A stretch of 37,806 nt of DNA from positions 1-37,806 of IMG/VR virus record IMGVR_UViG_3300025093_000054; one strand, given 5' to 3'. Position numbers and translations under genes: made by a program. The notes under the pieces were generated by a model that saw only the letters and a program-made list of their open reading frames with translations, made no database searches and was not told where the DNA came from. The DNA is from a virus. This document shows, one piece after another, positions 1,879 through 31,222 of this stretch (its first letter is position 1; the number at the start of each line of letters is the position of its first letter).

Positions 1879-3993
1879 ATGCCCCTGACAAAGCTTCAGT
1901 TCCGTCCGGGAATCGACCGAGAGGCCACGTCTTATGCAGATGAAGGTGGCTGGTTCGATATGGACAAGGTGCGTTTTCGTCTAGGGTTTCCTGAAAAAAT
2001 AGGCGGATGGACACGGCAAGGCACTGCAAGCTTTCTTGGTACATGTCGTGGCATCCACCCATGGATCACGCTTAGTGGAGACCAGCTCTTGGGGGTTGGC
2101 ACCAACCTAAAGTATTATGTCAACGAGGGCGGGGGGTATAACGATGTCACGCCGGTCAGATTAACCACTGCTGCTGGTGATGTTACATTTTCCGCGTCTG
2201 CAAATACGCTCGCGTCTGATGTGGCTGTAGACGACACAACAATTTCACTGACCAGCTCGACTGGGTTTCCCGTTACTGGCCGAATCAAAATCGACAGTGA
2301 GATCATTACATACTCTAGCGTTTCTGGTAATGACTTGATTGGATGCGAGCGTGGTCAGAGCGGCACTACAGCCGCGACTCATACTGCCACTACGGCAGTT
2401 CTATGCTCGACGATTATCGTGGATGACGCTGGTCACGGCGCTTTAGATAACGACTTCGTTACATTCAGTGGGGCTGTAACTCTTGGCGATCAGATCACCG
2501 CTGACAGGCTCAACCAAGAATACCAGATTATTTATATCTCTTCTACGGACCAATATTATATCGACGCCCGTACCGTATCGACCATACCTTCCATAACCAC
2601 AACAAGTGGCCTTGATGAAGAGTATGTGTTTGCCACAGCAACGGACAGTGGGAATGGTGGTGCGTCAGTCGTTGGCGCTTACCAGATCAACACAGGTCTC
2701 GACACATCTATCATCGGCACTGGCTGGGGTGCCGGTACATGGGGGCGGGGGACTTGGGGGTCCAGCGCCTCTACAACGACTTCTGGTGAGTCATTACGGC
2801 TCTGGTCGCATGACAACTTTGGGGAAGACCTTTTGTTTAACCCGCGTGGCGGTGGGATTTACTATTTAGACACCAGCAGTGGTCTTTCGAATCGCGCTGT
2901 ATCCTTGTCTGATCTTGCTGGAGCAGACACAACTCCCACAATTGCCAACACCGTCATGGTTTCAGACAACAGCAGGCACGTTCTTGCTTTTGGCTGTGAT
3001 GGGGAGTTTTCCCCCGGCGTCCAAGACCCACTGCTTATTCGATTCAGCAGTCAAGAAAGCCTGACGGACTGGTCTGCACAGATCGACAACTCAGCTGGTG
3101 ATCTACGAATTGGCACAGGCTCTGAAATCGTTACCGCGATAGAAACCCGTCAGCAAATTCTTGTCTTTACAGATGTGTCTTTGCACTCTTTGCAGTTTTT
3201 GGGACCGCCGTTTACTTTCGGCATAAACATGCTGTCGGACAATATTGCTATCGCCAGCCCCAATGCGCTGGCGTCTGCGCAAGACACCGTCTACTGGATG
3301 GGGAAGTCAGAGTTCTATGCCTACTCAGGCTCTGTGCAGCGCCTTCCATGTACGGTACGCGACTATGTCTTCAACGACTTCAATGAGTTTCAGTCGGAAA
3401 AAGTTTTTGCCACAACAGTGACGGCTTTCTCTGAGGTCTGGTGGTTTTATCCCTCTGCATCAAGCGATGAGGCGAATAGGTACGTTGTTTACAACTACGA
3501 ACAAAACATCTGGTACTATGGCACGATGTCCCGCACGGCGGCTGTAGATCGTGGTACGCAGAGAAATCCTATATTCGCTTCTTCGGATCATTACCTGTAT
3601 TACCATGAAGACGGGTTTGATGACGGGAGTGTTTTGCCCGCTGTCGGGATTGCGGCATATATTGAGTCTGCGCAGATGAGCATACAGAGCGGCGACAGCT
3701 TTGCGTTCATTAGCCGTGTGATACCAGACCTAACATTCCGAAACTCAACATCGTCTACGCCAGTAGCTGACTTTACAATCAAGGCTCGAAACTTTCCCGG
3801 AGGAGCATATCTTCAGTCCAACGACCTGAGCGTATCAAAGACAGCATCTGTTCCTGTGGAGCAGTTCACGGAGCAACTGTATATGCGGGTCAGGGGTCGA
3901 AGCTTTGCCTTCCGTATTGACTCTACAGAGACTGGCGTCTCGTGGCGTCTTGGTATTCCTCGTGTAGATATACGACAGGACGGGAGGCGTTAA
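1879..3993 (+). CDS. Beta-rich phage structural protein (tail/connector candidate)
   Basis: This 704-aa protein begins MPLTKLQFRPGIDRE and continues with a GGW...DKVRFR.GFPEKIGGW motif. From memory this opening is typical of a structural protein widespread in marine podovirus and metagenomic phage genomes. It is rich in Ser, Thr, Gly, aromatic residues and predicted beta strands. Residues about 117-174 contain a small-module pattern (GFPVTGRIKIDSE, then RGQSGTTAATH) seen in several phage virion proteins. It probably belongs to the tail hub or head-tail connector region, but the exact part is unknown. A promoter-like extended -10 lies just upstream. The Shine-Dalgarno match is weak. Its TAA overlaps the next ATG. 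Confidence 0.75.
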   Translation: MPLTKLQFRPGIDREATSYADEGGWFDMDKVRFRLGFPEKIGGWTRQGTASFLGTCRGIHPWITLSGDQLLGVGTNLKYYVNEGGGYNDVTPVRLTTAAGDVTFSASANTLASDVAVDDTTISLTSSTGFPVTGRIKIDSEIITYSSVSGNDLIGCERGQSGTTAATHTATTAVLCSTIIVDDAGHGALDNDFVTFSGAVTLGDQITADRLNQEYQIIYISSTDQYYIDARTVSTIPSITTTSGLDEEYVFATATDSGNGGASVVGAYQINTGLDTSIIGTGWGAGTWGRGTWGSSASTTTSGESLRLWSHDNFGEDLLFNPRGGGIYYLDTSSGLSNRAVSLSDLAGADTTPTIANTVMVSDNSRHVLAFGCDGEFSPGVQDPLLIRFSSQESLTDWSAQIDNSAGDLRIGTGSEIVTAIETRQQILVFTDVSLHSLQFLGPPFTFGINMLSDNIAIASPNALASAQDTVYWMGKSEFYAYSGSVQRLPCTVRDYVFNDFNEFQSEKVFATTVTAFSEVWWFYPSASSDEANRYVVYNYEQNIWYYGTMSRTAAVDRGTQRNPIFASSDHYLYYHEDGFDDGSVLPAVGIAAYIESAQMSIQSGDSFAFISRVIPDLTFRNSTSSTPVADFTIKARNFPGGAYLQSNDLSVSKTASVPVEQFTEQLYMRVRGRSFAFRIDSTETGVSWRLGIPRVDIRQDGRR

Positions 3994-4578: not shown

Positions 4579-5877
4579 ATGCTACCAGCACTCTTCGGCC
4601 TGTTGGGAAGTGGCATAGCAGGCACAAGCGCACTCGGCGGAATTGCTGCTGGGCTGTCCCCTCTCGCTGCTGGTGCAATCGGGTCTGGACTTGGTTCATT
4701 CATTCAGACAGGTGATCTGGGCGAAGGGCTAAAGGCCGGTCTAATGTCTTTTGCTGGCGGCAAGCTGATGGGCAATCTGATGAATAGCGCGTCCTCTGGG
4801 GCTATGGCATCTGGCGCAGCGCCTGCTGCCGCTTCATCCGCAACGCCTTCTGCGACTGCAGTTACCGAATCCCTGCGCCCCATGATGCGTCCTGATGCGG
4901 CTGCTGCTGCCATTCCAGAGGCTGGTGGCATCATGGATATTGGTAAGCGTGGGTTTGATTTTGGAAAAACGGCAGAGGGTATCGGATCGACCGTTGGCTC
5001 AATGTTGTCTCCGGGAGTCATGCCGGGTGGATTAACAGTGGATTCAAGTAAAGATGAAGTTCGGGAGGTTCCGGGGGGACGAGACATGAGCGGCGTAAGG
5101 TTCCCTGAGCCGGGAAGTCGCAGAAGTCGTGGTTCGGGGGAGTTCGACTACAACTTCCCCGGTCCATACGTTCGACCACCCACTCAAGCGGCCCCCATTA
5201 CTCCCGTGCCTGAGCCACGGAGGGCCACTGTAGGCACCTCCCCCACAGGATCGGCATTCGCAGGTGGCGGCATGCTTGCGCCGTATGCGCGTCCCACCAT
5301 GATGGGCATGGAAACACGTCTGGCGGCTGGCGGTTTGGCTGATCTTGCAGAGATCGATGTAATGGAAGAAATGCCCATGGATATGCCAGCTGACATGCCA
5401 ATGGACATGCCAATGGAAACTCCAGAGGAAAGCTCCACAAGCGCTTCACCTAACGACAAGGAAGTCATCGTCGATGCCGTCAAGGCAATCAAGTCTGGCA
5501 CTCCTGATGACATGAACAAAGTCGCTCTTGCGAATTTCGTTCAGAGATTTGGCGAAGAAGCCCTGATGGATTTGGTCGATAGTGTTCAGCGTGGCGACTT
5601 CGAAGATATCGCTAACGCTAACGAAGGTTTGATCAAGGGTCCGGGTGATGCCATGGAAGACCTTGTGCCAGCCACGAACACCGAAAATGGCGAGGACATT
5701 CTTCTATCCGGTGAAGAGTTTATTGTTCCGGGAGACGTTGTGAGCGGCCTCGGTAACGGCTCTTCTGAGGCGGGGGCTGACGAACTGTACAAGATGATGG
5801 ATCGCGTGCGTGTGGCAAGAACAGGCACTCCTGAGCAGCCCCCCCAGATTAAAGCTGGAGGTCTTTTGCCAGCATGA
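4579..5877 (+). CDS. Gly/Ala-rich virion protein with Met-Pro repeat
   Basis: This is a 432-aa protein. Residues 1-75 are a hydrophobic Gly/Ala/Leu-rich stretch (LFGLLGSGIAGTSALGG) that resembles membrane-active segments of phage internal virion proteins. The middle is Pro/Gly/Arg-rich and probably disordered. Residues about 263-278 carry the tandem Met-Pro repeat PMDMPADMPMDMPMET. The C-terminal third has the motif LSGEEFIVPGDVVSGLGNGS followed by DELYKMMDRVR, which from memory recurs in uncharacterised marine podovirus virion proteins. A clear GGAGG box precedes the ATG, directly after a recurrent palindrome. It is likely an internal or ejected virion protein; this is inference. Confidence 0.72.
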   Translation: MLPALFGLLGSGIAGTSALGGIAAGLSPLAAGAIGSGLGSFIQTGDLGEGLKAGLMSFAGGKLMGNLMNSASSGAMASGAAPAAASSATPSATAVTESLRPMMRPDAAAAAIPEAGGIMDIGKRGFDFGKTAEGIGSTVGSMLSPGVMPGGLTVDSSKDEVREVPGGRDMSGVRFPEPGSRRSRGSGEFDYNFPGPYVRPPTQAAPITPVPEPRRATVGTSPTGSAFAGGGMLAPYARPTMMGMETRLAAGGLADLAEIDVMEEMPMDMPADMPMDMPMETPEESSTSASPNDKEVIVDAVKAIKSGTPDDMNKVALANFVQRFGEEALMDLVDSVQRGDFEDIANANEGLIKGPGDAMEDLVPATNTENGEDILLSGEEFIVPGDVVSGLGNGSSEAGADELYKMMDRVRVARTGTPEQPPQIKAGGLLPA

Positions 5878-6314
5878 AAGACATGACCGAAAATGTAGAG
5901 ATTTTTTATGTTCCAAATGAAATTGTCCCTGAAGTGTGGGGCGAGGTTCAGGAGCTTATGGAGAAGTCGATTGCTACATCAGGCGGCAATTTCTTCCCAC
6001 ATGACGTGCTAGATCATATCATGGAAGGTTTCTACATGCTTTGGATTGCAAAAGTTGATGGTGAGATTGTTGCTGGAATAACGACAAGGGTTATAGAATA
6101 TCCCAATGCCCGGTCACTTTCTATGGACTGGATCGGCGGCAGTCAGATGCAAAAATGGTTACCAATTGCTCACGAGATCATAGTGGATCATGCCAAGGCA
6201 AATGGTTGCAGTCAGATTGAAGGCTATGGTCGCAAGGCTTGGGGCCGATGGCTTGCTAAGTATGGCTGGAAGCCAAATTATATTGCGTTCAAGATGGAGC
6301 TAGGAAATGGGTAA
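5874..6314 (+). CDS. GNAT-like acetyltransferase-fold protein
   Basis: This 146-aa protein is compatible with a small GNAT fold: helical N-terminus, strands in FYMLWIAKVDGEIVAGITTRVI (residues about 52-73), a central helix (IAHEIIVDHAKANGC) and a C-terminal GYGRKAWGRWLAKYGW.P segment that resembles the end of GNAT domains. The canonical Q/RxxGxG/A acetyl-CoA loop is not clear, so activity is uncertain. ATG overlaps the previous TGA; a second in-frame ATG lies at 5883. Similar GNAT-like genes sit between virion genes in other marine phages, perhaps modifying virion or host proteins. That role is speculative. Confidence 0.68.
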   Translation: MKDMTENVEIFYVPNEIVPEVWGEVQELMEKSIATSGGNFFPHDVLDHIMEGFYMLWIAKVDGEIVAGITTRVIEYPNARSLSMDWIGGSQMQKWLPIAHEIIVDHAKANGCSQIEGYGRKAWGRWLAKYGWKPNYIAFKMELGNG

Positions 6315-7965
6315 GGGCGGATCAACGCAGCAATCTGTCGTTCAGACAGACATCCCAGAATATGCCAAGCCATATTATTTGGACATCATGGACCGTGCGA
6401 CAGCTGCGTCCAAAGACGATTATGTTGAATATGAACCTGATCGTCTGGCTGGCTCAAACAGAGACATTCGGGCCTCGCGCGGAATGATCCGTGACATTGC
6501 TGCTCGCGGAATGCCAGCCACTGACTTGGCTCTACAAGGAACGAAGGAGTTGGCAGATACTGCCTTCAACCTCGGTCAACAAGACCCATATCAATTCAGC
6601 GCAGCCTCGTTCACCGAGCAATCAGCTGATCCTTACGCTGGCTTTAGGCGGACTGACGTTACTGGATATGACGACTTCGAAGCAGCTAAATTCAAAGACC
6701 TAAGCAGGCTATTCCGGGAGGGTGATACTTCTAGGTTTGGTGGCTTCCGCGCGGGCAGAGCCGATCCGTATTCTGGTTTCAGCCAGTATGGTGGCTTCGA
6801 GGCGGGCCGTGCGACTCAAGGCAGACTATCCGATGCTGGCACTGCGACAGCGGCAGACCTTGAGTCATACATGGACCCGTACAGTGAGCTTGTCACGGAA
6901 CAGTTGACCAAAAAGCTGCGCAAAGAAGCGGGCAAGTCTGCTGCTGAGCGTGGCGCACGAGCTGCTTCTGCTGGAGCTTTTGGTGGTTCTCGTCAGGCTG
7001 TGATGGAGGGCATTGCCGAAGATGAGCTTTTGGATCGCATTGCTTCCGTTGAGGCAGAGCAATCGTCCAAGGCATTCCAAGATGCACGCGCGGCGTTTGA
7101 AGCAGACCGCACTGCGCGTATGAATGTGGAGCAGGCTCGTCTTGCAGAGCGCGCACGCGCGCAGGGCATCAACATCGAAGAAGCGGCGCGTGTACAGCAG
7201 GCAGAGTCTGCAGAAGCTGCACGGTTCCAAGAGGCAGAGGCAGCAGAACTGGCCCGTACTCAAGGGATCAATATCGAAGAGGCTCGCAGGGTACAGCAAG
7301 ACAGGGCCGCAGAGTTTGCTCGCGCACAAGGCCTTAGCCTTGAAGAGGCGGGCCGGGTGCAGGCGGCTGTTGCTCAAGAAAAAGCCCGCATTCAGGGCGC
7401 AAGTGCTTCCGAGCTTGCTCGTATACAGGAGTCACAAGCTCAAGAACTCGCGCGCGTGCAGGGCATTTCTGTTGAAGAAGCTGCTCGCATTCAGGCATCT
7501 GAAGCTCAAGAGCTTGCTCGTGTGCAGGGTATTAGCATAGATGAGGCTGCTCGTGTTCAGGCCGCAAATGCCGCAGAGCGGGCGCGCATTCAAGCCGCTC
7601 AGGCTGCAGAAAATATGGCGCAAAGGGAGTTTCAACTTAGTACCCTTGGATTTACTTCTGACCAGTTACAGCAAATGTCTGCTTTGGAAGATGCCGCACG
7701 CGCTGGTGACATTCAGGCGGCACAGCTTTTGGAGACCATTGGCGCTGCCCGTCGAGCAGATGAACAAGCACAGCTTGACATTGATTATCAGGACTTTTTG
7801 CGCCAGCAGAACTACGAAAAGCAGCAGGTCAGTGACCTCATGGGCATCATGCGTGGTGTTCCTATAGGTCAGACTCAAACAACCTTCACGCCATATAACC
7901 CTATTCAGCAAGCGCTTGGCGCGGGTATTTCGGCGCTTGGTCTTTATAGGGGTCTTTACGGATGA
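6307..7965 (+). CDS. Virion protein with 22-residue coiled-coil repeats
   Basis: This is a 552-aa protein. The N-terminus (GKGGSTQQSVVQTDIPEYAKPYY) and C-terminus (PYNPIQQALGAGISALGLYRG) match, by memory, a conserved marine podovirus virion family. Residues about 115-180 have Tyr/Phe/Gly repeats (DPYAGF, DPYSGFSQYGGF). Residues about 277-433 hold roughly seven copies of a 22-residue unit of the type LARVQGISVEEAARIQASE, with an extra 11-residue half unit, so the period is hendecad rather than heptad. A long rod-like helix bundle is expected, suitable for an internal core or ejection protein. It overlaps both neighbours by a few bases. Confidence 0.75.
   Translation: MGKGGSTQQSVVQTDIPEYAKPYYLDIMDRATAASKDDYVEYEPDRLAGSNRDIRASRGMIRDIAARGMPATDLALQGTKELADTAFNLGQQDPYQFSAASFTEQSADPYAGFRRTDVTGYDDFEAAKFKDLSRLFREGDTSRFGGFRAGRADPYSGFSQYGGFEAGRATQGRLSDAGTATAADLESYMDPYSELVTEQLTKKLRKEAGKSAAERGARAASAGAFGGSRQAVMEGIAEDELLDRIASVEAEQSSKAFQDARAAFEADRTARMNVEQARLAERARAQGINIEEAARVQQAESAEAARFQEAEAAELARTQGINIEEARRVQQDRAAEFARAQGLSLEEAGRVQAAVAQEKARIQGASASELARIQESQAQELARVQGISVEEAARIQASEAQELARVQGISIDEAARVQAANAAERARIQAAQAAENMAQREFQLSTLGFTSDQLQQMSALEDAARAGDIQAAQLLETIGAARRADEQAQLDIDYQDFLRQQNYEKQQVSDLMGIMRGVPIGQTQTTFTPYNPIQQALGAGISALGLYRGLYG
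7135..7605 (+). repeat. 66-bp in-frame coiled-coil repeat array
   Basis: This is a tandem array of about seven diverged 66-bp units inside the 552-aa gene. The core codes for ARxQGIxxEEAxRxQ. The last two complete units (about 7444-7575) are the most alike, which suggests recent duplication at that end. One half unit of 33 bp (coding AARFQEAEAAE) interrupts the array after the first unit. Confidence 0.8.
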
Positions 7966-9743
7966 TGAACGTATTAGAACTTCAGGACAATCTGAAGAAC
8001 TTTTCGGAAGACCAGCTCGTCAATGAAATGCAGCAGCCATCTGGGAATGTGCCGCAGTATCTTGTTCTAAGCGAGATCAATCGACGTAAGCGCATCCGAG
8101 ATGACTACCAGCAGCAGCAACAAGCAGAGCAGTCAAAGATGACTGTGGCACAAGAGAAGCTTGCTGGCGCTGGCGTGCCAGCAGAAGGGCTGGCTGGGCT
8201 TGCTGCTTCCATGGCTCCTAAAACGGACATCACAGAAAACACTGGCGCTACGCCAGACCAGACCATGCCGTTACCAGAAGCTCCAGCTCCCATGGCTGAG
8301 CTGCCACGAAATGGCGGCATAGCTGCCATGGCAGGGGGCGGGTATGTGCAGCGCTACCAGTTGGGTGGACCCTTGGCTGGCGGCAATGTTGTTGTTCACA
8401 ATGGCATGCAGTTTCAGGTCAATCCTGATGGGATTATCATTGGCCCTGATGGCCAGCCTGTCACAGACCCGGCCATGGTTGCCGACATTCTTGGCGAGGT
8501 ACAACCAGCATCGGAGGAACGGTCTTGGGGTCAGCGCAACATTGGTGACCCGCTGCGTAGATTGCTTCAGCCTGTTGGCGATGCGGCACGAGATATTGGC
8601 CAGCCCATTGGTGAAGCAGCGCGGGATATAGGTCAGCCGATTGGCAATGCCATGCGGGAGGTGGGAGAGCCTATTGGCTCTGCGATCCGTGAAGGCCTTG
8701 CCCCTTCCGTATTTGACGCGACCACACCACCGTCTATTGGTGGGCAACCTTTCGGAGGCTCTGCAAGCCAGACTGCAACAGCTCTCTCCGAGCTAAACAT
8801 TTCTCAAGATGACTTTGCAGCCCTCGACTCAGAGGATCGGCAAGCAATCTTAGACGACCCAACGCGGCCCATGAGAGAGCGCACCGCAGAAATGTACCCT
8901 CCCGGAGAAGCACCCTTTGGTACGGGGATAAATCAACCGGGGTTTTTCCTTGAAACGTTTATGCCTAATAAGGCAGCTGACATACGGGCGCGCCGCTACG
9001 AACAGCAGCAGAGACTCGAAGAGGAGCGCGCAGAAGCGGCTAAAGACAAACCTACATCATCAGTACCTGACTCTGGAGATGACCTGAATCCTTCGATGGA
9101 TAAAGCGACAGCGATACGCCTGATGACATCTGATGATGCATACGCATATACCCCTCCTTCTCCCGATCCTGACCCTACAAAGACTACAAAGATCACAGGC
9201 GGCACAGGCGGCAGTGCGGGCGGTGGCGCAGGTTCCATTGAGTCCCAGATCATTGAAATGTTGAAGGAGCGCGAGAAGCGCGCAGAGAGCGAGAAATGGC
9301 TATCTCTTGCTCAGGCTGGACTGGCACTTATGGCGTCCGACCAGCCAACTCTTGGTGGCGCTATTGGTGAGGCTGGGCAGGTTGGCTTGACCAGACTTGG
9401 TGAGGCGCGTGATGATTACGAAGGTGCCAAGATGGCCTTGCTGAAAACGCAGCAGGCCATGCAGGCAGCTCGCGCTGGCTCTGGCCGTAGCCGTGATTAC
9501 AATAATCCTAGCACAATTGGGGCCGCTCTTGCCCGATTCGAAAAGATGCGTGAGGGTATGCTTGGTCGTGGCACTCGTGTGATTACGGACCCAGTTACTG
9601 GCGAACAAAAGACGGAGACTGTGTATCGAACATATGCTGATCTTTCGCCCGACCAAAGAAAGCTATATGATTATTACAGTGGAAATATTGCCAATCTAGT
9701 TAGACAGTACAGTGGCTTTTTCCCAGCAGACATGACTGGATAA
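7962..9743 (+). CDS. Internal/structural virion protein candidate
   Basis: This is a 593-aa protein. Residues 1-50 contain LKNFSEDQLVNEMQQPSGNV and a basic LSEINRRKRIRDDYQ helix followed by a Gln tract, a signature I recall from uncharacterised virion proteins of marine podoviruses. A Gly/Ala-rich, amphipathic segment follows (GGIAAMAGGGYVQRYQLGG). Residues about 205-247 hold four imperfect 11-residue repeats (ARDIGQPIGEA type). The C-terminal third is helical and alternates charged and Ala/Gln-rich stretches. The gene starts ATGATG, overlapping the previous stop, with AGGGG upstream. It lies directly before the giant polyvalent gene, so an ejection or internal-core role is likely; this is inference. 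Confidence 0.72.
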   Translation: MMNVLELQDNLKNFSEDQLVNEMQQPSGNVPQYLVLSEINRRKRIRDDYQQQQQAEQSKMTVAQEKLAGAGVPAEGLAGLAASMAPKTDITENTGATPDQTMPLPEAPAPMAELPRNGGIAAMAGGGYVQRYQLGGPLAGGNVVVHNGMQFQVNPDGIIIGPDGQPVTDPAMVADILGEVQPASEERSWGQRNIGDPLRRLLQPVGDAARDIGQPIGEAARDIGQPIGNAMREVGEPIGSAIREGLAPSVFDATTPPSIGGQPFGGSASQTATALSELNISQDDFAALDSEDRQAILDDPTRPMRERTAEMYPPGEAPFGTGINQPGFFLETFMPNKAADIRARRYEQQQRLEEERAEAAKDKPTSSVPDSGDDLNPSMDKATAIRLMTSDDAYAYTPPSPDPDPTKTTKITGGTGGSAGGGAGSIESQIIEMLKEREKRAESEKWLSLAQAGLALMASDQPTLGGAIGEAGQVGLTRLGEARDDYEGAKMALLKTQQAMQAARAGSGRSRDYNNPSTIGAALARFEKMREGMLGRGTRVITDPVTGEQKTETVYRTYADLSPDQRKLYDYYSGNIANLVRQYSGFFPADMTG

Positions 9744-9754
9744 AGGGGTACAGC

Positions 9755-12700
9755 ATGGGGATTATTACGGTCGATGGACCCCAGACTGGCACTCCATATG
9801 CAGTTAGGATTGCAGGCGAGCAGCCCACTCCTGAAGAACAGGAGCGCATCAATAAGTACGTTGCTGATCAGGAGCAATACACCCAGTCTGTGATTGCCGG
9901 TTACCGTGGAGCGCCGACAGTACAGCAGCAGGCTCCTGCAGCAATGCCTGATCCTGAGCCTGAAGACACGACTGCCGTTGGTCGTGGTCTTCGGCGTATC
10001 GGTCAAAGCTCCAAGTCTTTGCTTGGTACAAGTATTGAGGAGCTGGGTGAAGCAACTGGCATTGCCAGTCTGGAGCAGTTTGGCCGCAGAGTTGAGGAAA
10101 GTGGGCAGGCTGGGCTTGAGCGCCTCATAAGGGAAGAGGGGATTACCACCCGTCAGGACGTTGAGGACTTTGGCACAGGTGCGTCATATGTTGGTGAGCT
10201 GATAGGTGAGGAGCTGCCACTGACTGCTGCTGGTATTGCTGGTTCATACGCTGGCAGTAAAGCTGGTGCGGCGCTTGGGACATTTATTGCGCCCGGTATC
10301 GGCACTGCTATAGGCGCTGGTCTGGGCGGGATTGCCGGTGGTGGTGCAGCGTTACTTCCACTGATATTTGGGTCGCATATGCAGCGTCAGGAGGAAGCGT
10401 ACGCAGCAGGCGAGCTAGAAAACGTTGATGCCGGAAGGGCGTTAAGAACTGCTATTGGGGCGTCAGCAGTTGACGGCATTGCGAATACAATATTAAGGGC
10501 TTTGCCGTTTCGCCCCGGCGTAGGAAACCTATTTTCTCGGACTGTAAAGACTGGCGCAGCCGGTGTTGCCACGGAAGTGCCAACAGAGATTACCCAGCAA
10601 ATCATTGAGCGTGCGCAGGCTGGTCTGCCTATCGACAGCGATGATGCCATTCAGGAATATATCGATGCAGGTGTGGCGGCTGGTATCTTGGGCGGCGGCA
10701 TCGGCGTTGGCGCTGGAGCTATTCGTCCCGATCTTGCAAAGCAAGAACTTGATCAAGACTTCGACGAGTTTATGCAGACTAACGCTGGTCGCTTGGCGAA
10801 TGTTGATCAGCATATAGATCAGGACGAACGCAATACCGACGAGATTCTCGCGCTTCCGGCACCTGATCCTGCACCCGTTCTTGACGCCCTGCCAGCCCCA
10901 CAGCCAGAGACAATCTTTGAAGGTAAGGACTTTGGCCGTAACGAATACAACACCGTCCTTCAGCAGGTTCAGGAAGACGGTGAGCTGAACATGCCGAAGG
11001 CGCAGTCTCGCTTGCGGGAGATGACGGGATCGCCTGTTCCCATGCAGCGTGTCCGCAGTATCGCTGAACTTCTTGCAGAGCGTGGTGAGATTGCAAAAAG
11101 CACCCGTGCAAAGAAAGACAAATACACGGTTGCCCCTGCAGGCAAGGCTGCATCAGATGCTATCGATGCGCTGCGCCGGGACACCGACACGGTCATGCGC
11201 AAGATCAAGAAGATTTCGGCTGAGCTGCCACGTCTTGATCTGGATCGTCGCTATGCTGAGCAGACTGGACGTGACACATACGGCAAGCGGCGTAAGGCTG
11301 CAGAGGTCGAGCGCGTCATCCAGAGCAAATTAGTTCAATTGGACAAATTGAACGAGCGGCTTGAGGGCAACAAGCAGAGGCTCCGCACCGTCAACGTAGA
11401 TTACTCTGTGCCGGTCACGGAGAAGGTGGGCGTTCCTGCCTCGCAGGTACGGATGCAGGACTTCATTGAGCAGAACCGTCGTGAGCAGGAAGCTGAGCTT
11501 CAGAAGGTTCGTGCCGCAGCAGATGCCCGTGCTGTGGCTGATGCCGTTCGGGCCAACCGCGACAAGAACATCTCTGTCACAACGCGGGAATACACCCAGC
11601 GCCAAGGTCAAATCTTGGACAATCTGCGTAAGCGTCTGGACAAGATTGGCCTGAAGAATGTGAAGCTTGAGGGCAAGAAGGTCATTGGGTCTGAGCAAGA
11701 GGGCTTTGCTGAAGGTGTCTCGTATACCAGTCCCGATGGAGAGCAGGTCATTGGTCTGTCCATGGGCTTGTATGATCCGGCACTTTCTGACGCCGACTAT
11801 GAGGCGCGTGTAGCCGATGTGATGAACCATGAGATAATCCACGCACTACGGAACCTCAACGTATTCACACCAAAAGAACTGAAGCTTCTGTCGCGTGCAG
11901 CGCGTAAAACAAAGTACGTCAAAGCTGTTGACGGAAAAAAGATCAAAAGAAACTACTCGTACTTCGACCGTGCGGCACGGATAAACCCTGAGCTATCCGC
12001 CAAGAAGGACAAGCAGGGCGTGCTGTCTGCCTTGGAAGAAGAGGCGGTAGCGGAAATGTACCGGGACTATGTGTCCGGTAACCTGCCGAAGGTTGGTCAG
12101 TCACGTTCCATCCTGAAGCGCATTGGGGATTTCTTTAAGTCCATTGTTGGCGCGCATGTGGACGATGGGTTCAACAGTGTTGACTCCATCTTCGGAAACA
12201 TCACCGGAGGCTCTGTTGCGGGACGTGAGCAGGTAACACGTCAAGCGCAAGAAGCTTTGGACATGACGCCGCAGGAGTCGGTGGTCAAAGCATCACGGGT
12301 TCCTGTGACCGAGGAAGAGTTCCGTTTGCCTCAAGACATTCGGATGCCAGTCGATCCGGCTCTTCCACCTGATCAGGTCCGTTCAAAAATTCAGCGGATG
12401 ACGAACCAGAATAGACCGATTGTTCGCAGACTGGTCACTGAAATCGATGCGGAATTTGGTACTAAATCCGGTGACAATGCCAAAGACCTATCGAAGGTCA
12501 CACAGAAGGCACGCCGCCCATCTATCTTGGCCGAAAAGCCATGGCATAATGTATCTCACATCCGGGACAGTTACCGCTTTAAAACGGTCATTGATGATTT
12601 CCGCGATGTGCCGGGTATCTTCAACAAGCTATTAGACGCAGGCATTAGCCTTGTGAAGATCGACACGAACAAGTTGTTCGAGCCGAAGGAGTGGGGATGG

Positions 12701-15700
12701 CGCATCATTGCGTTCGATCTGCGTATGCCGAATGGACAGCTTGTTGAGTGGTATTTGCCGCTCAGAGAGCTGGAGATTGAAAAGAAGCAACGCGGCCATC
12801 TGATTTTCGAGGAATGGCGCAACAAGACCCAAGAAGAACTGTATGATCAGCGCAATGAATACCTTGACGCTCTGGAACGCAGCTATCGTGGATACGACAA
12901 CGCCTTCAAGGCGGCGCTAGAACGTGTGGGTCTGACGCCTCAAGAGGCAGAGGCTTCTTGGAGAAGCGCAGAGAGTTCCATTTCCGAGGCTGCACGGAAT
13001 GCGCGTAAGTCGTCGGGTGTTGGAATTTCGTCGGGCGTCAGCTCTGATACTGACTTGACTGTGCCATCTGCTGTACGCACGGCCTTGGAGCCGTCTTCCA
13101 TGAAGATGATTGCACGCGAGGTGCCTTCGTCTACCAGTGCGAATGCTTCTTCTGACATTGGCGTAACTCCTTCTGATATTGATGTTAGCGGAATGCCGCT
13201 TGAGCAGCAACCGAGCTTTGCGCGTCTGCGCCGTTCTGATGCTATCCCAACGCTGGCCAACTATATTCGCAACAACCCTGATGGCTTTACGATCAGCCCC
13301 GATACCTATGAGCCGGTGTCCGGTGGTTTTTCTGTGGCACCCCTGAAGGAAGCTGAAATCATTACTGGCGACAACCTTCCTGAAGAGGTTCTGGTTGACT
13401 ATTTAAAAGATAACAAGGATATTGGGAGGGCAATAGGACAGCCTGTCTACCTTGGCGGCTGGTTCGATAGTGAAAGCAACCAATACTTTTTGGACAACTC
13501 GCTGGTCGTGCCAACCCTTGAAGAGGCACTGTACATTGCAGACGCTGCAGAGCAACTTGCAATATTTGATTTAAACAAGCGCGAGGAGATCAGGACCGAT
13601 GCAGGAATCAGAGGGCTTCAAGAAAGTGGAGCTTATTCAAGTGACGCCGCAGTCGGATATAAAGGACGACTTGCGGAAACTGGTCGCCGCTTTGCGGAAG
13701 CAAGGAATAACCGTAACGCCCGCGAAAAAGAACAGCTTGTTGGACGGACAGCCCCAGCAGGCACCCAAGCAGGCGAGCAAAGAAAACGACAGACCGGAGA
13801 CGGAAAGAGACGGTATACGGCAGGAACGCTTGCGCCGCTTGAAGGTGCGCCGAATGTTCGAGGAGCGTCGGGACCAGACGAAAACCTAGTTGCTGTCGCA
13901 GAGCAATATGCACAAGACAACGGTATTGACCTAAAGAGGCAATCTGAATTTGTCGTTGTTGATGAGGGCAGGGCCACCAGAATAGCCAAAGCGTATGAGG
14001 ATATGAAACATGATCCTCAAAACCCTGTCGTAAAAGAAGCATATCAAAATCTGATAAACCAAACCAAGGCGCAGTACGATGCCTTGGTTGATGCGGGTTA
14101 TGAGTTTACATTCTTTGATGGAAACACAGACCCATATGACGGCAATCCATGGAACGCCATGAGAGACCTACGCGCCAATAAGCGCATGGCAGTTTACGGC
14201 ACATATGATGGATACGGCACGGAAGGTATTACGCAAGGTGAATTAGACGACAACCCAATGCTTCAAGACACTGGTCTGGTTTGGAGGGATCAGAATGGAG
14301 TTGGTCGTCCAGTAACCGCGAACGACTTGTTCCGTGCCGTTCATGATGCGTTTGGACATGGCTTGGAAGGGGCTGGCTTCAGGGCAAGGGGCGAAGAGAA
14401 CGCATGGCAGGCGCATGTCAGGTTGTTTACAGGTTCTGCTGTCCCGGCAATTACATCAGAGACAAGGGGCCAAAACAGTTGGCTGAACTATGGTCCGTAT
14501 GGCGAGGCAAATAGAAACGCAAAAGTAGAGGACACGATTTTTGCTGACCAGAAAACTGGTCTTATGCCTGAGTTCACATGGCAAGAAGGTGTTGCCGGAG
14601 ATGCCGACGCGCTAGTCGAAGATGAGGCGGCTCCACTCGTCAAAGAAGGGGCTACGCCCAAAAAGCTTTCAAGGCTGACGGTTCCACTTACACAGGAGCA
14701 ACGTGACGCCAGCATTTTGGATTACATTGATCCAAGCACTGGTAAGCCTTTGTTCAAAGCAAAACCAAACAGCATCAAGCTTGTTGCCTTCGCCAATAAA
14801 ATCCTTGGCCTTCGTGGCAGTCGATCCTACGACATCATCAACTCCGAAGAAGATCGCCAAGAGGTAGCTAACATCTTTGCTGCTGAGGCAGAGGCGGCAC
14901 TTCTGTCGAGCAGTGATGCCTTGGGTTGGTACGACAAGACCCTGAAGCTTGCCAAGCAAGTACTGAGCAAGGTGTACCCAGAAGTCACGCCAACCCTAAA
15001 GAATGGCGAACGCAATCCTTCCTACGATGCCGATGCAGAAGTCGCTTTGGATTTTGCCACTGCCATTACATCGAATGGCTTGGCGGTCACAGACAACTAC
15101 GACTTCGCCGCCAGACAATATGATGCGTGGAAGGCCAGCGAAGACGGCAAGTTCCCAGTTGAAGGCAAGGGCGCGCAGGGTGGCTCTATGCTTGGTGCCT
15201 TTGGGTTCTGGAACGATCTTGTTGATCTGGGTCTTACGCCACCTCAAATTAACGAACTTCTAATGACCGAAGCCCGTCGTGGTGATCTAAACAGGATGAT
15301 GGCAGATATCCTTGGTTTAGAAAAAATCGGTGATCTTCCAAAGCAATTTAAGGCCAACAGTGACGAACTGGCTAACGAGATTGTATCGTTTGCGTATTTG
15401 CTTGGCCCGAAGATTGGTAACGGGTTTTATCGTAACCTGCGCGGGAACTTTAGCCCTATCACCATGGATCGTTGGTGGATGCGTTTCATGAACCGCATCA
15501 CGGGCAATCCGATCAAAGAGGTGAACCCGGCCACACTCGAAAAAAATGTGAACTCCATTTGGACGAAGATCAGAGACAATGATCTGACGGACATGGACCG
15601 TGAGATACTTGCCACGGCACGAAAGCGCATGACATCTGGTCGCTTGCGGAAGTCTGACATCGTGGACATCTCACCAATCGTGAATGAAATCTTCGAGGAA

Positions 15701-18700
15701 GACTACTACGCCAGAGCCTACAATAAGAAACTGGATGAACTGAAAGCGCAGGGCTATGAGGTCACGGGCAAGGAGGGCGAAAACGCCAGAAAGATTGCGC
15801 AAGCTGCACGACCCAACCGCACGCCATTCCTGCAGAACATTGGCACCTATGTAAAGAACGTGGAGACACAGCTTCAGGAAGCCCCGCGCAGCGGTTCTGA
15901 CCGCAAGGCGATGCGGGACGTGACGGATCGTGCAAGACAAATCCTGAAGGTGGCCACTGGTATCGACATCAATAACGCTGACATACAAGCTCTGATGTGG
16001 TACGCTGAAAAGCGCCTGTACGCTGCGGGCGGTGTCCGTAAGGGTCGTGGTGACGACAACGACTACGCAGATGGTGCTATCTACGTCCTAAAGAAAAAAG
16101 GTCTGAACAATGCCGACATCCAAGATACACTCCCCGATTCAGAGCGAAAGCGGGTCGTTCGTATCGCTTCTGAACTCGCAGCAAATGAAAAAGCTGACGC
16201 AGATGTTGTCCAAATTGGTGGACCCGAATACGGAGACTTCTTTGGACCTCGACGACTTGTTATCGAAGAAAGGGCAATCTCCGAAAACCTAACGCCCGCA
16301 GAGCAAGCCGAAGCAGCGGAAACTCTTTCGGCCATTGACGAGCTTGGCACCAGACCGCCGGTAAAGTTCTCTGCCATTCCCACACGACCATACGCGCCTG
16401 TACGCGCCCCTGTACAAGGTGGCGGCCTCTTGGATTACGCCTATGGCTTCATCAAGGATGGTCGGCGCAAGATTCCTGTGATTCTGCCAGAAGGCTCCCA
16501 CAAGGAAATCGGTAATGTAGAAGTCGGTCATGGCTTGTATCACATCCATCGCCGCGCCCATGATCGTGAACTGGTAGAAAACTCCAATTACAAGCGCGTC
16601 GAGAAAGCAATCTACGACCTGATGCGCCGCTGGCAGGACCAAGGTTACGATGACGGCGAGAGCGTGATTGGCTACCCATCTCGTGATGGCTACGTCCTTG
16701 AGTGGCGTAACAACCTCACGCACAGCGCACCTCCCCTGCAGTTGGTGCTGGAAGAAAAGCCACTCGGCAACTCGACTGTCTTTTATGTAAAGACCTTCTA
16801 CCCGATCTTGGAAAAGAATAAGCGGATCAATGATCCGCATCGTGGCAAGAAGCGCGCCCAGAGGGTGCGGGCTTACAGCCGCATTCCTATTTACTCAAGG
16901 ACGCCCGACACCCGGTCTGAATACATTGGACCATCTGACCTCGCTGACCGCGCCGAAGGCATTCGCTATACCAAGGTTCAGGAAACGATGGCGAAGACGC
17001 TGGGCAAGCTGCCGTTCGTGAAGAACGAAGACGCCCACGCCAAGACTACTGCGTTCATGACCAAGCTGCAGGACAACATGCTGCCGGTTGGCCAGATGTA
17101 TGACAAGCTGCGCGACAAGTATGGCCCCGGCGTCATCACGCAGGACTTGGATGCGTACTTCCAAGAAACCCTGATGCACGGTGTGTCTGGTCCGAAGAAA
17201 GAAAAGTTCGATAGAACTTCTTTCAAGCCAGTGCTTGAGCAGATCGCAAACATGAAGGTGACAGATCAGGAAGACGGCACCCTCGGAAGGATTTCTGGCT
17301 ACTACAAGGACATGGTGGAGAAGTATGAAAACCGATCCCATGCTCTGGCGAACGCATACCTCTACGCTTTGCATGCAGGTGAGCGTAACGCACGCATGAA
17401 GGCTATTTCCAAAGGTGAGCGTGAGGGCGGGTCTGGTATGTCAGACAGTGAGGCTGACAGCATCAAGGCATTCGTGGCTATGCTGCCCGCCTCTAAGCGT
17501 GAGACCTTGGAGCAGATCGACCGTCGTGTTCAGGACATGATCAAACAGACCAACCAAGTCTACATCGAAGGCGGTCTGATCCCTGACTATCTGCTGAACG
17601 AAGATATTGCGGATGACATTAAGCAGAAGTTCAAGCAGTACAATTCATATGTGCCGCTGCGTGGATTTTCTGATCCTGAAGCTGATTTAGATACTACCAA
17701 TGAAACGTACCTTTCTTCGACGCAGAAGTATGGTGCTTCTGGCAAACCAAACTTATCTGCCTTGGGTCGCTCCACCTATGCGGGGGACATCCTTGCTAAC
17801 GTGGCTGTGCAGCATCATCAGGCAATCGACAAAGCAGAGCGCAACAAGGTTGGCCAATCACTGCTGAAGCTTCTGGAACGCGAAGACATCGACACTGATG
17901 AGTTCGGCAGGGTTCTGGAACAGCACCCGATGAAGCGCGTTCTGGTGAACGGCACTATCCGTTATGTGCCGGATCGAAACTTTAACGATCTTGATGACGC
18001 AATTCTAACAGTTCGTCGAGATGGCAAGGAGTTCCTGATTGCCATGAACCCCGCCATTGCCAAGGCAATGAAGGGTTCGCTATCGGCAAAGCAAGGCAAC
18101 ATTGCTGTTCGGTTTGCCCACCAGATCACACGGACATACGCCAACCTGCTGACCAGCTACAACCCAGCCTTCCTGCTGTCCAACTGGCCACGAGACATTG
18201 CGACGGCACTGTTTAACGCGCAGCAGTACAACATGAAGGGTGCCGAAGGTAAGATCATGAAGGGCGTCGTCCCTGCCTTCCGCTCCATCCTTAATGTGAT
18301 TAACGAGAAAGGCACAGCAGACCCGTACTGGGCCAATCGCTACAAGCAGTTCTACGAGAACGGCGGGCAGAACGTGCTGAACCAGATGGCCGAGACGGTC
18401 AATGCCTCCAAGGACATTCAACGCACGATCAAGGAGATCGTTGAGGCTGATAACAAAGGCATGAAGAATGTCGTCAAGCGTGGCTTTGTTGGCCCAGCGA
18501 AGAGCTTGTTGGGGTACGTCGAAGCACTGAACACGGCAGTGGAAAACTCCACACGCCTATCGTTCTTTGATGCCATGGCTACGCAGCTGGAGAGCGAGGG
18601 GGTTCCGCAAAAGGAGGCGCTGAAGCGGGCAGCATTTGCGGCTCGGAACCTGACCACCAACTTCAGCAAGGGTGGTGAATGGAAGAACGGCCTCAACGCA

Positions 18701-19846
18701 TTCTACTTGTTCTTCAACGCATCCCTTCAGGGTTCGATGGCCATCTTCAACTCCTTGGCCAACAGCAAAAAAGCACGGAAGGTTGCGGGTGCCGTTGTAG
18801 TTCTGGGCTTCCTTCTGGATCAGCTCAACGCTGCGCTGTCTGCCGATGATGATGACGATGGGATCAAAGACTTCGACAACATCAGTGACTACACGCTGAG
18901 CCACAACCTGATCCTGCCCGATCTGAATGGGGATGGAACCTACGTCAAGATACCCATGGCCTACGGCATAAACACGATGTTCGATCTTGGCCGTGTCACC
19001 TCAAATCTTATTCGTGGCACCGCTGGGTATGAAGGCACTTACACACCTGAGCAGGCAGCTACGCAGCTTCTGAGCGTGACAGAGGAGATGATCAACCCGT
19101 TTGGCGGAAACAGCTTCCTGACGTTCATTTCCCCCACCTTGGGCGATCTACCTGTGGAGCTTCTCACAAACGAAGATTTCCGTAATGCTCCGATCTACAA
19201 AGAGCTGTCCCCGTTCGAACAATATAGGTCGCGCAGTGGTCTGTACTGGTCAACAACCAGCCCCAGCGCAATCGGGATATCCAAGTTCATCAATGACACG
19301 ATTGGCGGTGGAGATGACTTCATCCCCGGCAGTGTCATGGGTATGCGCGTGGACATCCAGCCCGATGTGATTGAGCATGTACTTGGGTTCATGACGGGTG
19401 GCGTCGGCACTCTTGCCAGACAGACTGCGGATACACTGACCAGCAATGTGCCGAATGCAGCCATGGGTCAGTGGGAGTCTGATATGATCAGGACCACGCC
19501 GTTCGTCAACAAGTTCCTGACTGCGGTAACGGACAAGGATCGTGCTGGTGATTACTACGAAAAGCGCAACGATGTATTTGCTGTACGTCGTTCGTATCGC
19601 AGTGCTGTGGAAGCACGAGACGCGCAGCAGATAGCTGTCCTGCGGCAGCGTTACCCTGAAATCCTTCGAATTATGGAGCCGGTTCGAAAGATAGACAATG
19701 CGATTACCAAGCTGCGGACACGTCTAAAACTTATAAAGGTCAATCCAAATATCCCGCGCAAGCGGAGACTAGAGTTTGAGGAAAAAATTGAAGACAGAAT
19801 TTTCCAACTTCAGCAGAGAGCAATGCAGCTGATGAGCGTGATATAG
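9755..19846 (+). CDS. Giant polyvalent virion protein (HExxH, RelA/SpoT-like, PBECR-like, LPD38-like)
   Basis: This 3363-aa protein has the architecture of a polyvalent protein injected with phage DNA. In order: residues 146-325, Gly/Ala membrane-active segments; 692-696, HEIIH zinc-peptidase motif with a downstream EEEAVAEMYRDY as possible third ligand; about 925-1035, a RelA/SpoT-like stretch (R937-D938, G981-W-R983, E998, G1014-H1015); about 1158-1282, a module ending QLAIFDL; about 1380-1582, a conserved module with VHDAFGHGLEGAGF (H1530, H1535) and TRGQNSWLNYGP; about 2225-2350, a PBECR-like nuclease candidate (LYHIHRR, H2263/H2265); about 2790-3363, an LPD38-like C-terminus (NPAFLLSNWPRDIATALFN). 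AAAGGGG precedes ATG. The length resembles N4 virion RNA polymerase, but I see no polymerase motifs. Domain calls rest on motif reading only. Confidence 0.85.
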   Translation: MGIITVDGPQTGTPYAVRIAGEQPTPEEQERINKYVADQEQYTQSVIAGYRGAPTVQQQAPAAMPDPEPEDTTAVGRGLRRIGQSSKSLLGTSIEELGEATGIASLEQFGRRVEESGQAGLERLIREEGITTRQDVEDFGTGASYVGELIGEELPLTAAGIAGSYAGSKAGAALGTFIAPGIGTAIGAGLGGIAGGGAALLPLIFGSHMQRQEEAYAAGELENVDAGRALRTAIGASAVDGIANTILRALPFRPGVGNLFSRTVKTGAAGVATEVPTEITQQIIERAQAGLPIDSDDAIQEYIDAGVAAGILGGGIGVGAGAIRPDLAKQELDQDFDEFMQTNAGRLANVDQHIDQDERNTDEILALPAPDPAPVLDALPAPQPETIFEGKDFGRNEYNTVLQQVQEDGELNMPKAQSRLREMTGSPVPMQRVRSIAELLAERGEIAKSTRAKKDKYTVAPAGKAASDAIDALRRDTDTVMRKIKKISAELPRLDLDRRYAEQTGRDTYGKRRKAAEVERVIQSKLVQLDKLNERLEGNKQRLRTVNVDYSVPVTEKVGVPASQVRMQDFIEQNRREQEAELQKVRAAADARAVADAVRANRDKNISVTTREYTQRQGQILDNLRKRLDKIGLKNVKLEGKKVIGSEQEGFAEGVSYTSPDGEQVIGLSMGLYDPALSDADYEARVADVMNHEIIHALRNLNVFTPKELKLLSRAARKTKYVKAVDGKKIKRNYSYFDRAARINPELSAKKDKQGVLSALEEEAVAEMYRDYVSGNLPKVGQSRSILKRIGDFFKSIVGAHVDDGFNSVDSIFGNITGGSVAGREQVTRQAQEALDMTPQESVVKASRVPVTEEEFRLPQDIRMPVDPALPPDQVRSKIQRMTNQNRPIVRRLVTEIDAEFGTKSGDNAKDLSKVTQKARRPSILAEKPWHNVSHIRDSYRFKTVIDDFRDVPGIFNKLLDAGISLVKIDTNKLFEPKEWGWRIIAFDLRMPNGQLVEWYLPLRELEIEKKQRGHLIFEEWRNKTQEELYDQRNEYLDALERSYRGYDNAFKAALERVGLTPQEAEASWRSAESSISEAARNARKSSGVGISSGVSSDTDLTVPSAVRTALEPSSMKMIAREVPSSTSANASSDIGVTPSDIDVSGMPLEQQPSFARLRRSDAIPTLANYIRNNPDGFTISPDTYEPVSGGFSVAPLKEAEIITGDNLPEEVLVDYLKDNKDIGRAIGQPVYLGGWFDSESNQYFLDNSLVVPTLEEALYIADAAEQLAIFDLNKREEIRTDAGIRGLQESGAYSSDAAVGYKGRLAETGRRFAEARNNRNAREKEQLVGRTAPAGTQAGEQRKRQTGDGKRRYTAGTLAPLEGAPNVRGASGPDENLVAVAEQYAQDNGIDLKRQSEFVVVDEGRATRIAKAYEDMKHDPQNPVVKEAYQNLINQTKAQYDALVDAGYEFTFFDGNTDPYDGNPWNAMRDLRANKRMAVYGTYDGYGTEGITQGELDDNPMLQDTGLVWRDQNGVGRPVTANDLFRAVHDAFGHGLEGAGFRARGEENAWQAHVRLFTGSAVPAITSETRGQNSWLNYGPYGEANRNAKVEDTIFADQKTGLMPEFTWQEGVAGDADALVEDEAAPLVKEGATPKKLSRLTVPLTQEQRDASILDYIDPSTGKPLFKAKPNSIKLVAFANKILGLRGSRSYDIINSEEDRQEVANIFAAEAEAALLSSSDALGWYDKTLKLAKQVLSKVYPEVTPTLKNGERNPSYDADAEVALDFATAITSNGLAVTDNYDFAARQYDAWKASEDGKFPVEGKGAQGGSMLGAFGFWNDLVDLGLTPPQINELLMTEARRGDLNRMMADILGLEKIGDLPKQFKANSDELANEIVSFAYLLGPKIGNGFYRNLRGNFSPITMDRWWMRFMNRITGNPIKEVNPATLEKNVNSIWTKIRDNDLTDMDREILATARKRMTSGRLRKSDIVDISPIVNEIFEEDYYARAYNKKLDELKAQGYEVTGKEGENARKIAQAARPNRTPFLQNIGTYVKNVETQLQEAPRSGSDRKAMRDVTDRARQILKVATGIDINNADIQALMWYAEKRLYAAGGVRKGRGDDNDYADGAIYVLKKKGLNNADIQDTLPDSERKRVVRIASELAANEKADADVVQIGGPEYGDFFGPRRLVIEERAISENLTPAEQAEAAETLSAIDELGTRPPVKFSAIPTRPYAPVRAPVQGGGLLDYAYGFIKDGRRKIPVILPEGSHKEIGNVEVGHGLYHIHRRAHDRELVENSNYKRVEKAIYDLMRRWQDQGYDDGESVIGYPSRDGYVLEWRNNLTHSAPPLQLVLEEKPLGNSTVFYVKTFYPILEKNKRINDPHRGKKRAQRVRAYSRIPIYSRTPDTRSEYIGPSDLADRAEGIRYTKVQETMAKTLGKLPFVKNEDAHAKTTAFMTKLQDNMLPVGQMYDKLRDKYGPGVITQDLDAYFQETLMHGVSGPKKEKFDRTSFKPVLEQIANMKVTDQEDGTLGRISGYYKDMVEKYENRSHALANAYLYALHAGERNARMKAISKGEREGGSGMSDSEADSIKAFVAMLPASKRETLEQIDRRVQDMIKQTNQVYIEGGLIPDYLLNEDIADDIKQKFKQYNSYVPLRGFSDPEADLDTTNETYLSSTQKYGASGKPNLSALGRSTYAGDILANVAVQHHQAIDKAERNKVGQSLLKLLEREDIDTDEFGRVLEQHPMKRVLVNGTIRYVPDRNFNDLDDAILTVRRDGKEFLIAMNPAIAKAMKGSLSAKQGNIAVRFAHQITRTYANLLTSYNPAFLLSNWPRDIATALFNAQQYNMKGAEGKIMKGVVPAFRSILNVINEKGTADPYWANRYKQFYENGGQNVLNQMAETVNASKDIQRTIKEIVEADNKGMKNVVKRGFVGPAKSLLGYVEALNTAVENSTRLSFFDAMATQLESEGVPQKEALKRAAFAARNLTTNFSKGGEWKNGLNAFYLFFNASLQGSMAIFNSLANSKKARKVAGAVVVLGFLLDQLNAALSADDDDDGIKDFDNISDYTLSHNLILPDLNGDGTYVKIPMAYGINTMFDLGRVTSNLIRGTAGYEGTYTPEQAATQLLSVTEEMINPFGGNSFLTFISPTLGDLPVELLTNEDFRNAPIYKELSPFEQYRSRSGLYWSTTSPSAIGISKFINDTIGGGDDFIPGSVMGMRVDIQPDVIEHVLGFMTGGVGTLARQTADTLTSNVPNAAMGQWESDMIRTTPFVNKFLTAVTDKDRAGDYYEKRNDVFAVRRSYRSAVEARDAQQIAVLRQRYPEILRIMEPVRKIDNAITKLRTRLKLIKVNPNIPRKRRLEFEEKIEDRIFQLQQRAMQLMSVI

Positions 19847-29985: not shown

Positions 29986-29993
29986 ACTTCACC

Positions 29994-31013: not shown

Positions 31014-31222
31014 TGCGATTTCTCCTTCAGTCGCTCTTTCAGTTTTTGAATTTGATTGCGGGCCTGACGCATCTGCATCATGTCGGACCCGATTTCTGCG
31101 CTCACCCATGACGGGCGAACGCCATCACCGTAGCGTGCCAGCACGCTGTCGATGCCGTCCTGCGTGTGACGCAGGAATGCTTCGAGGTCAGAGACCTCAC
31201 GTTTGATTTCTTCGATGGTCAT
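31010..31222 (-). CDS. Small coiled-coil protein upstream of MoxR
   Basis: This 70-aa, charged, helical protein (TIEEIKREVSDLEAFLRHTQ; QARNQIQKLKERLKEK) likely forms a coiled coil. The start at 31222 lies six bases after the previous stop. Its TGA overlaps the MoxR ATG, so the two products are translationally coupled and may interact. No family is recognised. Confidence 0.6.
   Translation of the reverse strand: MTIEEIKREVSDLEAFLRHTQDGIDSVLARYGDGVRPSWVSAEIGSDMMQMRQARNQIQKLKERLKEKSQ

Follow-up and report, generated by a model that had tools for sequence, protein, structure and literature searches.

The DNA analysed in this study, hereafter the window, is a linear virus record from IMG/VR (IMGVR_UViG_3300025093_000054; 37,806 nucleotides), and here we describe a giant gene at positions 9755–19846 of its plus strand, which encodes a protein of 3363 aa. 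The open reading frame (ORF) runs over 3363 codons without an internal stop, its ATG start is preceded by AAGGGG, which resembles a ribosome-binding site, and the gap to the preceding gene is 11 bases. Homologues of about 2900–3200 aa are encoded by related contigs. The gene is a real ORF for a phage polyvalent protein with several modules, as had been proposed in a first-pass annotation made from the sequence alone; this class assignment is right because LPD38 is present (residues 3038–3232; Pfam E 7.9e-25), which also bears out the LPD38-like C-terminus claimed at the time. LPD38 was the sole family above its Pfam cut-off in the giant protein, and PADLOC and NCBIfam searches gave no match. 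While the first-pass annotation had the class right, it missed the cassette sites and the candidate glycosylase module described below.

Module borders were drawn from alignment with relatives and from module profiles, which resolved at least eight conserved modules in an architecture common to 14 relatives. From the N-terminus, an N-terminal domain (residues 1–330) and a less conserved stretch (330–600) are followed by an HExxH module (607–832), a RelA-like module (860–1085), the MID module (1150–1330), an HD(x)FGH domain (1345–1620), the helical M6/M7 region (1640–2140), a BECR-like module (2225–2357), the M9 region (2345–2838) and an LPD38 unit (2841–3360). MID (positions 13202–13744; all features within the gene lie on the plus strand) is conserved and without an assigned function. 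The more distant relatives L213–L216 carry several hundred residues of other sequence between the HExxH and BECR-like modules.

Module exchange at two sites

Our comparisons of aligned sequences indicate that the giant protein is a constant chassis with cassette sites, at one of which a RelA-like module has been cleanly swapped for a zeta toxin. Cassette site 1 (slot 1; about residues 845–1140; 12287–13174) holds the RelA-like module in the window and many relatives, a zeta toxin in L007 and L013, and the HD(x)FGH module in L002; in L003 this cassette is missing and the HExxH module continues straight into M6. The zeta toxin (PF06414; Pfam E 4.5e-18 in L013) is confined to those two relatives and is not found in the window. 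Cassette site 2 (slot 2; about residues 1335–1640; 13757–14674) is occupied in the window by the HD(x)FGH module, which therefore sits at different sites in the window and L002, whereas L002 has an unrelated 118-aa module there and other close relatives have a short linker.

The exchange is clearest in two pairs of relatives, each with a core and C-terminal backbone at about 90–100% identity. Specifically, L005 (RelA-like) and L013 (zeta) share 15–25% aa identity at residues 801–1100, compared with 96–99% at 401–700, 87–99% over 401–800 and 91–99% from 1201 onwards. The same RelA-like/zeta exchange separates L004 from L007, with 97% aa identity at 701–800 and 91–100% downstream of the slot. 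Mosaicism of polyvalent proteins has been described for Helicobacter jhp1044 (PMC5512222); a clean exchange of a single module at a fixed site on near-identical backbones goes beyond that description. This suggests that the phages trade tools of attack or counter-defence as cassettes.

When the window is compared with its relatives, identity is 66–84% in the RelA-like and HD(x)FGH modules and 34–75% in the rest of the protein. The high identity suggested a recent transfer of the two modules, an explanation that we dropped since fourfold-degenerate sites agree in only about 16–55% in every module and are thus saturated. Given this saturation, the difference in identity reflects purifying selection and supports function, while being silent on the recency of transfer.

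The slot joints are located in low-confidence linkers of the AlphaFold2 model, which are probably disordered. In close relatives, SR-[LIVM] peptides mark up to four of five module starts, an enrichment noticed post hoc; in L005 (residues 796, 1103, 1285 and 1863) P was about 1e-4 under random placement. The signal is weak in the window (two of six module starts, at residues 846 and 1638; P 0.02), and the enrichment is lacking in L213, L214 and L216, which are more distant relatives. The peptide may mark a site of cleavage, or else a linker common to these proteins.

Enzyme-like modules

The RelA/SpoT-like nucleotidyltransferase module of slot 1 (residues 860–1085; 12332–13009) was evaluated with an AlphaFold2 model built on 65 aligned sequences, in which its predicted local distance difference test (pLDDT) scores were moderate (35–81 by block). 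The best PDB matches were all alarmone synthetases, with Foldseek at E 7e-4 and probability 1.00. Structure comparison with VIA gave Z 9.8 to Bacillus subtilis SAS2 and to a Streptomyces small alarmone synthetase, 8.2 to CapRel and 8.1 to Tas1; scores for the toxin MenT1 reached no more than 7.3 and those for DNA polymerases 7.1. The hhalign comparison with RelA proteins from six bacterial genomes was weak (6.5% probability), though still the best of five tested, and it placed D938, a GWR turn and E998 opposite the Asp, GYK turn and Glu of RelA. D938 and E998 are invariant in seven sequences. A PDB sequence search with the RelA-like alignment found no credible match. An alarmone-synthetase fold with the catalytic Asp and Glu in place is thus supported, as far as predicted structure goes; the RelA/SpoT-like stretch claimed earlier (860–1024) stands on fold and catalytic residues, but no sequence profile finds it. 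The module resembles small alarmone synthetases and toxSAS/CapRel/Tas1 in predicted fold and in the position of the catalytic pair; it differs in lying below Pfam detection and in being part of a giant phage protein.

Slot 2 of the window holds the HD(x)FGH domain (residues 1345–1620; 13787–14614). The module that the first-pass annotation had singled out, VHDAFGHGLEGAGF, is present at residues 1529–1542 (VHDAFGH motif) and proved to be part of a widespread phage domain of roughly 270 aa, whose core motif HDAFGH...GEENA...H...ETRGQNSW covers residues 1530–1576 (14342–14482). Eight residues that are likely to form its active site (H1530, D1531, H1535, E1547, H1554, Q1573, N1574 and K1600) do not vary across 97 non-redundant sequences, and pLDDT is mostly 85–98 in the AlphaFold2 model. 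The domain occurs in at least 560 confirmed IMG/VR stretches, at 21 loci in bacterial genome assemblies (mainly Proteobacteria) and in about 200 phage records (187 from mycobacteriophages), mostly within very large proteins. It matched no Pfam, NCBIfam or PADLOC family, a PDB sequence search with its alignment gave no credible match, and the structure search returned no PDB fold for it among the matches listed, which were filled by those of the RelA-like module. HD(x)FGH is a recurrent, unnamed phage domain, and it goes beyond the polyvalent domains of PMC5512222 in having no match in those three family collections. Because the eight residues are invariant in 97 sequences, their conservation suggests a metal-dependent enzyme. 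Identity as an aromatic amino acid hydroxylase was considered and rejected, the hhalign resemblance being confined to 11 columns at the H[DE]xxGH motif.

We note that five contigs (L063–L067, about 6001–7077) have about 300 extra bases in the HD(x)FGH module, possibly an insertion or intron. On bacterial contigs the domain is found stand-alone or fused (L234:4809–6123, L236:4860–6152): as a 305-aa protein adjoining a DUF3293 gene in Enterovibrio, and as a DUF3293 fusion in a bacterium of the BD1-7 clade, in both cases beside an NAD-binding gene. It is possible that these bacterial loci form a cellular system.

The region at residues 1640–2140 (14672–16174) was all-helical in a second structure prediction (model B, built on 25 sequences), and we regard it as a candidate HhH-GPD DNA glycosylase/AP lyase on the basis of this model and of conservation. 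Its best PDB match with VIA was 1XG7 (Z 7.0; 190 of 245 residues; 4.3 Å), the next row being 4.4. 1XG7 served as search model for the structures of archaeal AGOG, in which K140/D172 are equivalent to K249/D268 of OGG1 (PMC9638937). A candidate catalytic pair, K1886 and D1905 (15410–15469; spacing 19), is invariant in 29 sequences that include Limnohabitans phage DC33 at 27% identity; some divergent members have a spacing of 18. The module is like the AGOG/OGG 8-oxoguanine DNA glycosylases (PMC9638937) in being all-helical, in its best structural match and in the Lys/Asp pair, but unlike them it matches no profile; given the negative profile tests we call it HhH-GPD-like and not a member. A PDB sequence search with the alignment from M6 to the PBECR-like module gave no credible match. 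In the literature searched we found no AGOG/OGG glycosylase in a phage polyvalent context, and the word 'glycosylase' is absent from the main text of PMC5512222, so this candidate is a further addition to that account. With regard to phage DC33 itself (PQ492659.1), an isolate whose 3125-aa protein bears M6, its taxonomy line reads Inoviridae, yet its 39-kb genome and its icosahedral head with a short tail (PMC12195039) fit a tailed phage.

The PBECR/RelE-like module (residues 2225–2357; 16427–16825) is a weak assignment. The nuclease proposed earlier corresponds to a predicted alpha/beta region at this place, and several of its matches were to RelE-superfamily toxins, which agrees with that proposal, although all were weak: with VIA, model residues 587–715 gave Z 4.2 to YoeB/ParE 6n90, 3.9 to HigB1 and 3.6 to Cami1. 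Pfam gave no match to the module.

Chassis and virion context

In the N-terminal domain (residues 1–330; 9755–10744), residues 56–262 match phrog_6958, annotated 'virion structural protein', at E 2e-9. The Gly/Ala segments reported earlier were found at residues 145–210 (10187–10384) and 300–326 (10652–10732), with 45–48% Gly plus Ala and hydropathy up to 1.66; they are probably membrane-active. In this N-terminal region (residues 101–300), L005 and L013 share 26–27% aa identity, though they are near-identical outside the slot, and perhaps this is a further exchangeable segment.

In the zincin-like HExxH module (residues 607–832; 11573–12250), the motif noted in the first reading is present as HEIIH (residues 692–696; 11828–11842), and H692, E693 and H696 together with E762/E763 are kept in at least 90% of 32 relatives; Pfam reports no peptidase match above cut-off for the module. 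At the other end, three PHROGs made up of giant proteins (phrog_14770, phrog_616 and phrog_10691) have matches in the C-terminal third. These fall in the conserved M9 region (16787–18268), which is followed by the C-terminal chassis with LPD38 (18275–19834).

The giant gene closes a run of plus-strand genes that includes a virion structural protein (1879–3993; phrog_3287), an acyltransferase-like gene of 146 aa (5874–6314), a DNA ejection protein-like gene of 552 aa (6307–7965; phrog_4287) and, directly upstream, a 593-aa gene (7962–9743) that is conserved in most relatives and is a probable further ejection or virion protein. The ejection protein-like gene contains many ARxQGIxxEEAARVQ-type repeats. 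This gene order is matched in a relative whose contig is 62 kb long.

The C-terminal M9-LPD38 unit is homologous (E 9e-12) to gp69 of Burkholderia phage JC1, a DarB-like giant virion protein of Bcep22-like podoviruses (PMC9144972). JC1 gp69 is a 4515-aa LPD38 protein for which mass spectrometry of CsCl-purified virions yielded 51 unique peptides, and its gene, as here, closes a run of virion genes; within that run, a gene for a 146-aa acetyltransferase lies six genes ahead of it (PMC9144972). The cargo differs: a lytic transglycosylase, a methylase and a helicase in gp69, against RelA-like, HD(x)FGH, glycosylase-like and BECR-like modules in the window. The likeness to the polyvalent proteins of Iyer et al. 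2017 (PMC5512222) extends to the giant multidomain build, the zincin metallopeptidase-like HExxH, LPD38, the RelA/SpoT-like and PBECR-like modules and the virion-gene setting. We infer that the giant protein is probably packaged in the virion and injected. A protein of similar size, the virion RNA polymerase (vRNAP) gp50 of phage N4, is ejected with two other ejection proteins (PMC12633501). The window protein would work like gp50 without being a member of its family, in that it carries several different small enzymes; in agreement with the first reading, no polymerase family was reported by Pfam, PHROGs or NCBIfam, in searches that did not include a dedicated vRNAP profile.

The homologous giant proteins of MW202722.1 and MW202640.1 are named 'crystallin beta/gamma motif-containing protein', for which our findings offer no support. 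Elsewhere in the window (28861–31109, minus strand), two adjacent genes resemble, on visual inspection, a MoxR-like AAA+ ATPase and a VWA-type protein; phrog_1314 labels the second one 'HNH endonuclease'.

Proposed mechanism and alternative explanations

We consider it quite probable that the giant protein is the largest of the ejection (virion) proteins of a phage that is probably short-tailed, and that it combines a constant chassis with exchangeable enzymatic cargo. In the chassis, the Gly/Ala-rich N-terminal domain would likely enter the envelope, the zincin-like HExxH module may act as a metallopeptidase, and the M9-LPD38 unit likely serves packaging. The cargo would comprise the RelA/SpoT-fold, nucleotide pyrophosphokinase-like module in slot 1, the HD(x)FGH domain in slot 2, the BECR-like RNase and the candidate DNA glycosylase of HhH type. 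The protein would be expressed together with the late virion genes and packaged, and would reach the host along with the DNA or ahead of it; its own metallopeptidase may cut at the module joints, and the freed enzymes could modify nucleotides, RNA or DNA of the host, or counter its defences, before phage gene expression. More tentatively, it may be a phage counterpart of polymorphic toxins: a two-slot ejection chassis that exchanges injected warheads (alarmone-synthetase-fold, zeta kinase, HD(x)FGH) joined by metallopeptidase-cut SR-[LIVM] linkers, with a virion-delivered DNA glycosylase and a new, widespread HD(x)FGH enzyme family.

Several results weigh against this proposal. The RelA_SpoT Pfam profile has no match in the window even at E <= 10, nor does Biopterin_H at E 10; the HhH-GPD and AGOG profiles are unmatched there as well, AGOG even at E 10. 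The glycosylase match of Z 7.0 falls within the range where helical arrangements can coincide, and those of the PBECR-like module do not exceed Z 4.2. Virion mass spectrometry comes from one distant homologue, JC1 gp69, and the inferred cleavage has to be set against the N4 vRNAP, which has a metallopeptidase domain and is packaged uncut (PMC5512222).

An artefactual origin of the exchanges, as chimeras of metagenome assembly, would be conceivable in that all close relatives are IMG/VR metagenome contigs. We give it a very small chance: the same swap on two separate backbones makes a single chimeric assembly an unlikely cause, the RelA-like module and MID occur together in many contigs from different samples (the zeta toxin in two), and M6 and HD(x)FGH modules also appear in shuffled form in other public phage records. 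Improbable as well, if less remote, is a protein that acts mainly as a structural or morphogenesis scaffold with enzyme-like folds as inactive relics. Large virion proteins can carry inactive domains, such as the inactive PBECR in MuF of phage Mu (PMC5512222), and the conserved C-terminal units contain no known enzyme; yet catalytic-type residues are invariant across large divergence, amino acids are kept although fourfold sites are saturated, and one site exchanges unrelated enzymes.

A purely protective role of the injected protein is possible, though we lean away from it: a DarB-like counter-defence against restriction, RNA-based or nucleotide-signalling immunity, with no attack on the host. 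The C-terminal chassis is common to DarB-like antirestriction proteins of Bcep22-like phages (PMC9144972), and polymorphic exchange fits an arms race against host immunity. However, the RelA/SpoT fold, the zeta toxin and the BECR-like module all belong to the catalytic domains that toxins typically use, and Pfam and PADLOC searches found no restriction-related domain. There is also a sizeable chance, short of even, that the helical module merely resembles a DNA glycosylase and that its Lys/Asp pair has another role. The unmatched profiles, a hhalign probability of 0.3% against bacterial HhH-GPD proteins and a Z score below the safe level for helical folds would all be consistent with this. Nonetheless, the match spans 190 of 245 residues and lies 2.6 Z units above the next row, the pair is invariant at a spacing of 18–19 (19 for K249/D268 of OGG1), and AGOG is likewise all-alpha.

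Implications

Mosaic polyvalent proteins were already known. Natural pairs in which little but the module of one slot differs, with nearly the same virion chassis carrying two different warheads, make function testable. Should the glycosylase and HD(x)FGH modules prove active once injected, two enzyme types would be added to the early arsenal of phages. Under the same condition, HD(x)FGH by itself would supply a function for a module carried by hundreds of phage contigs and by mycobacteriophages.
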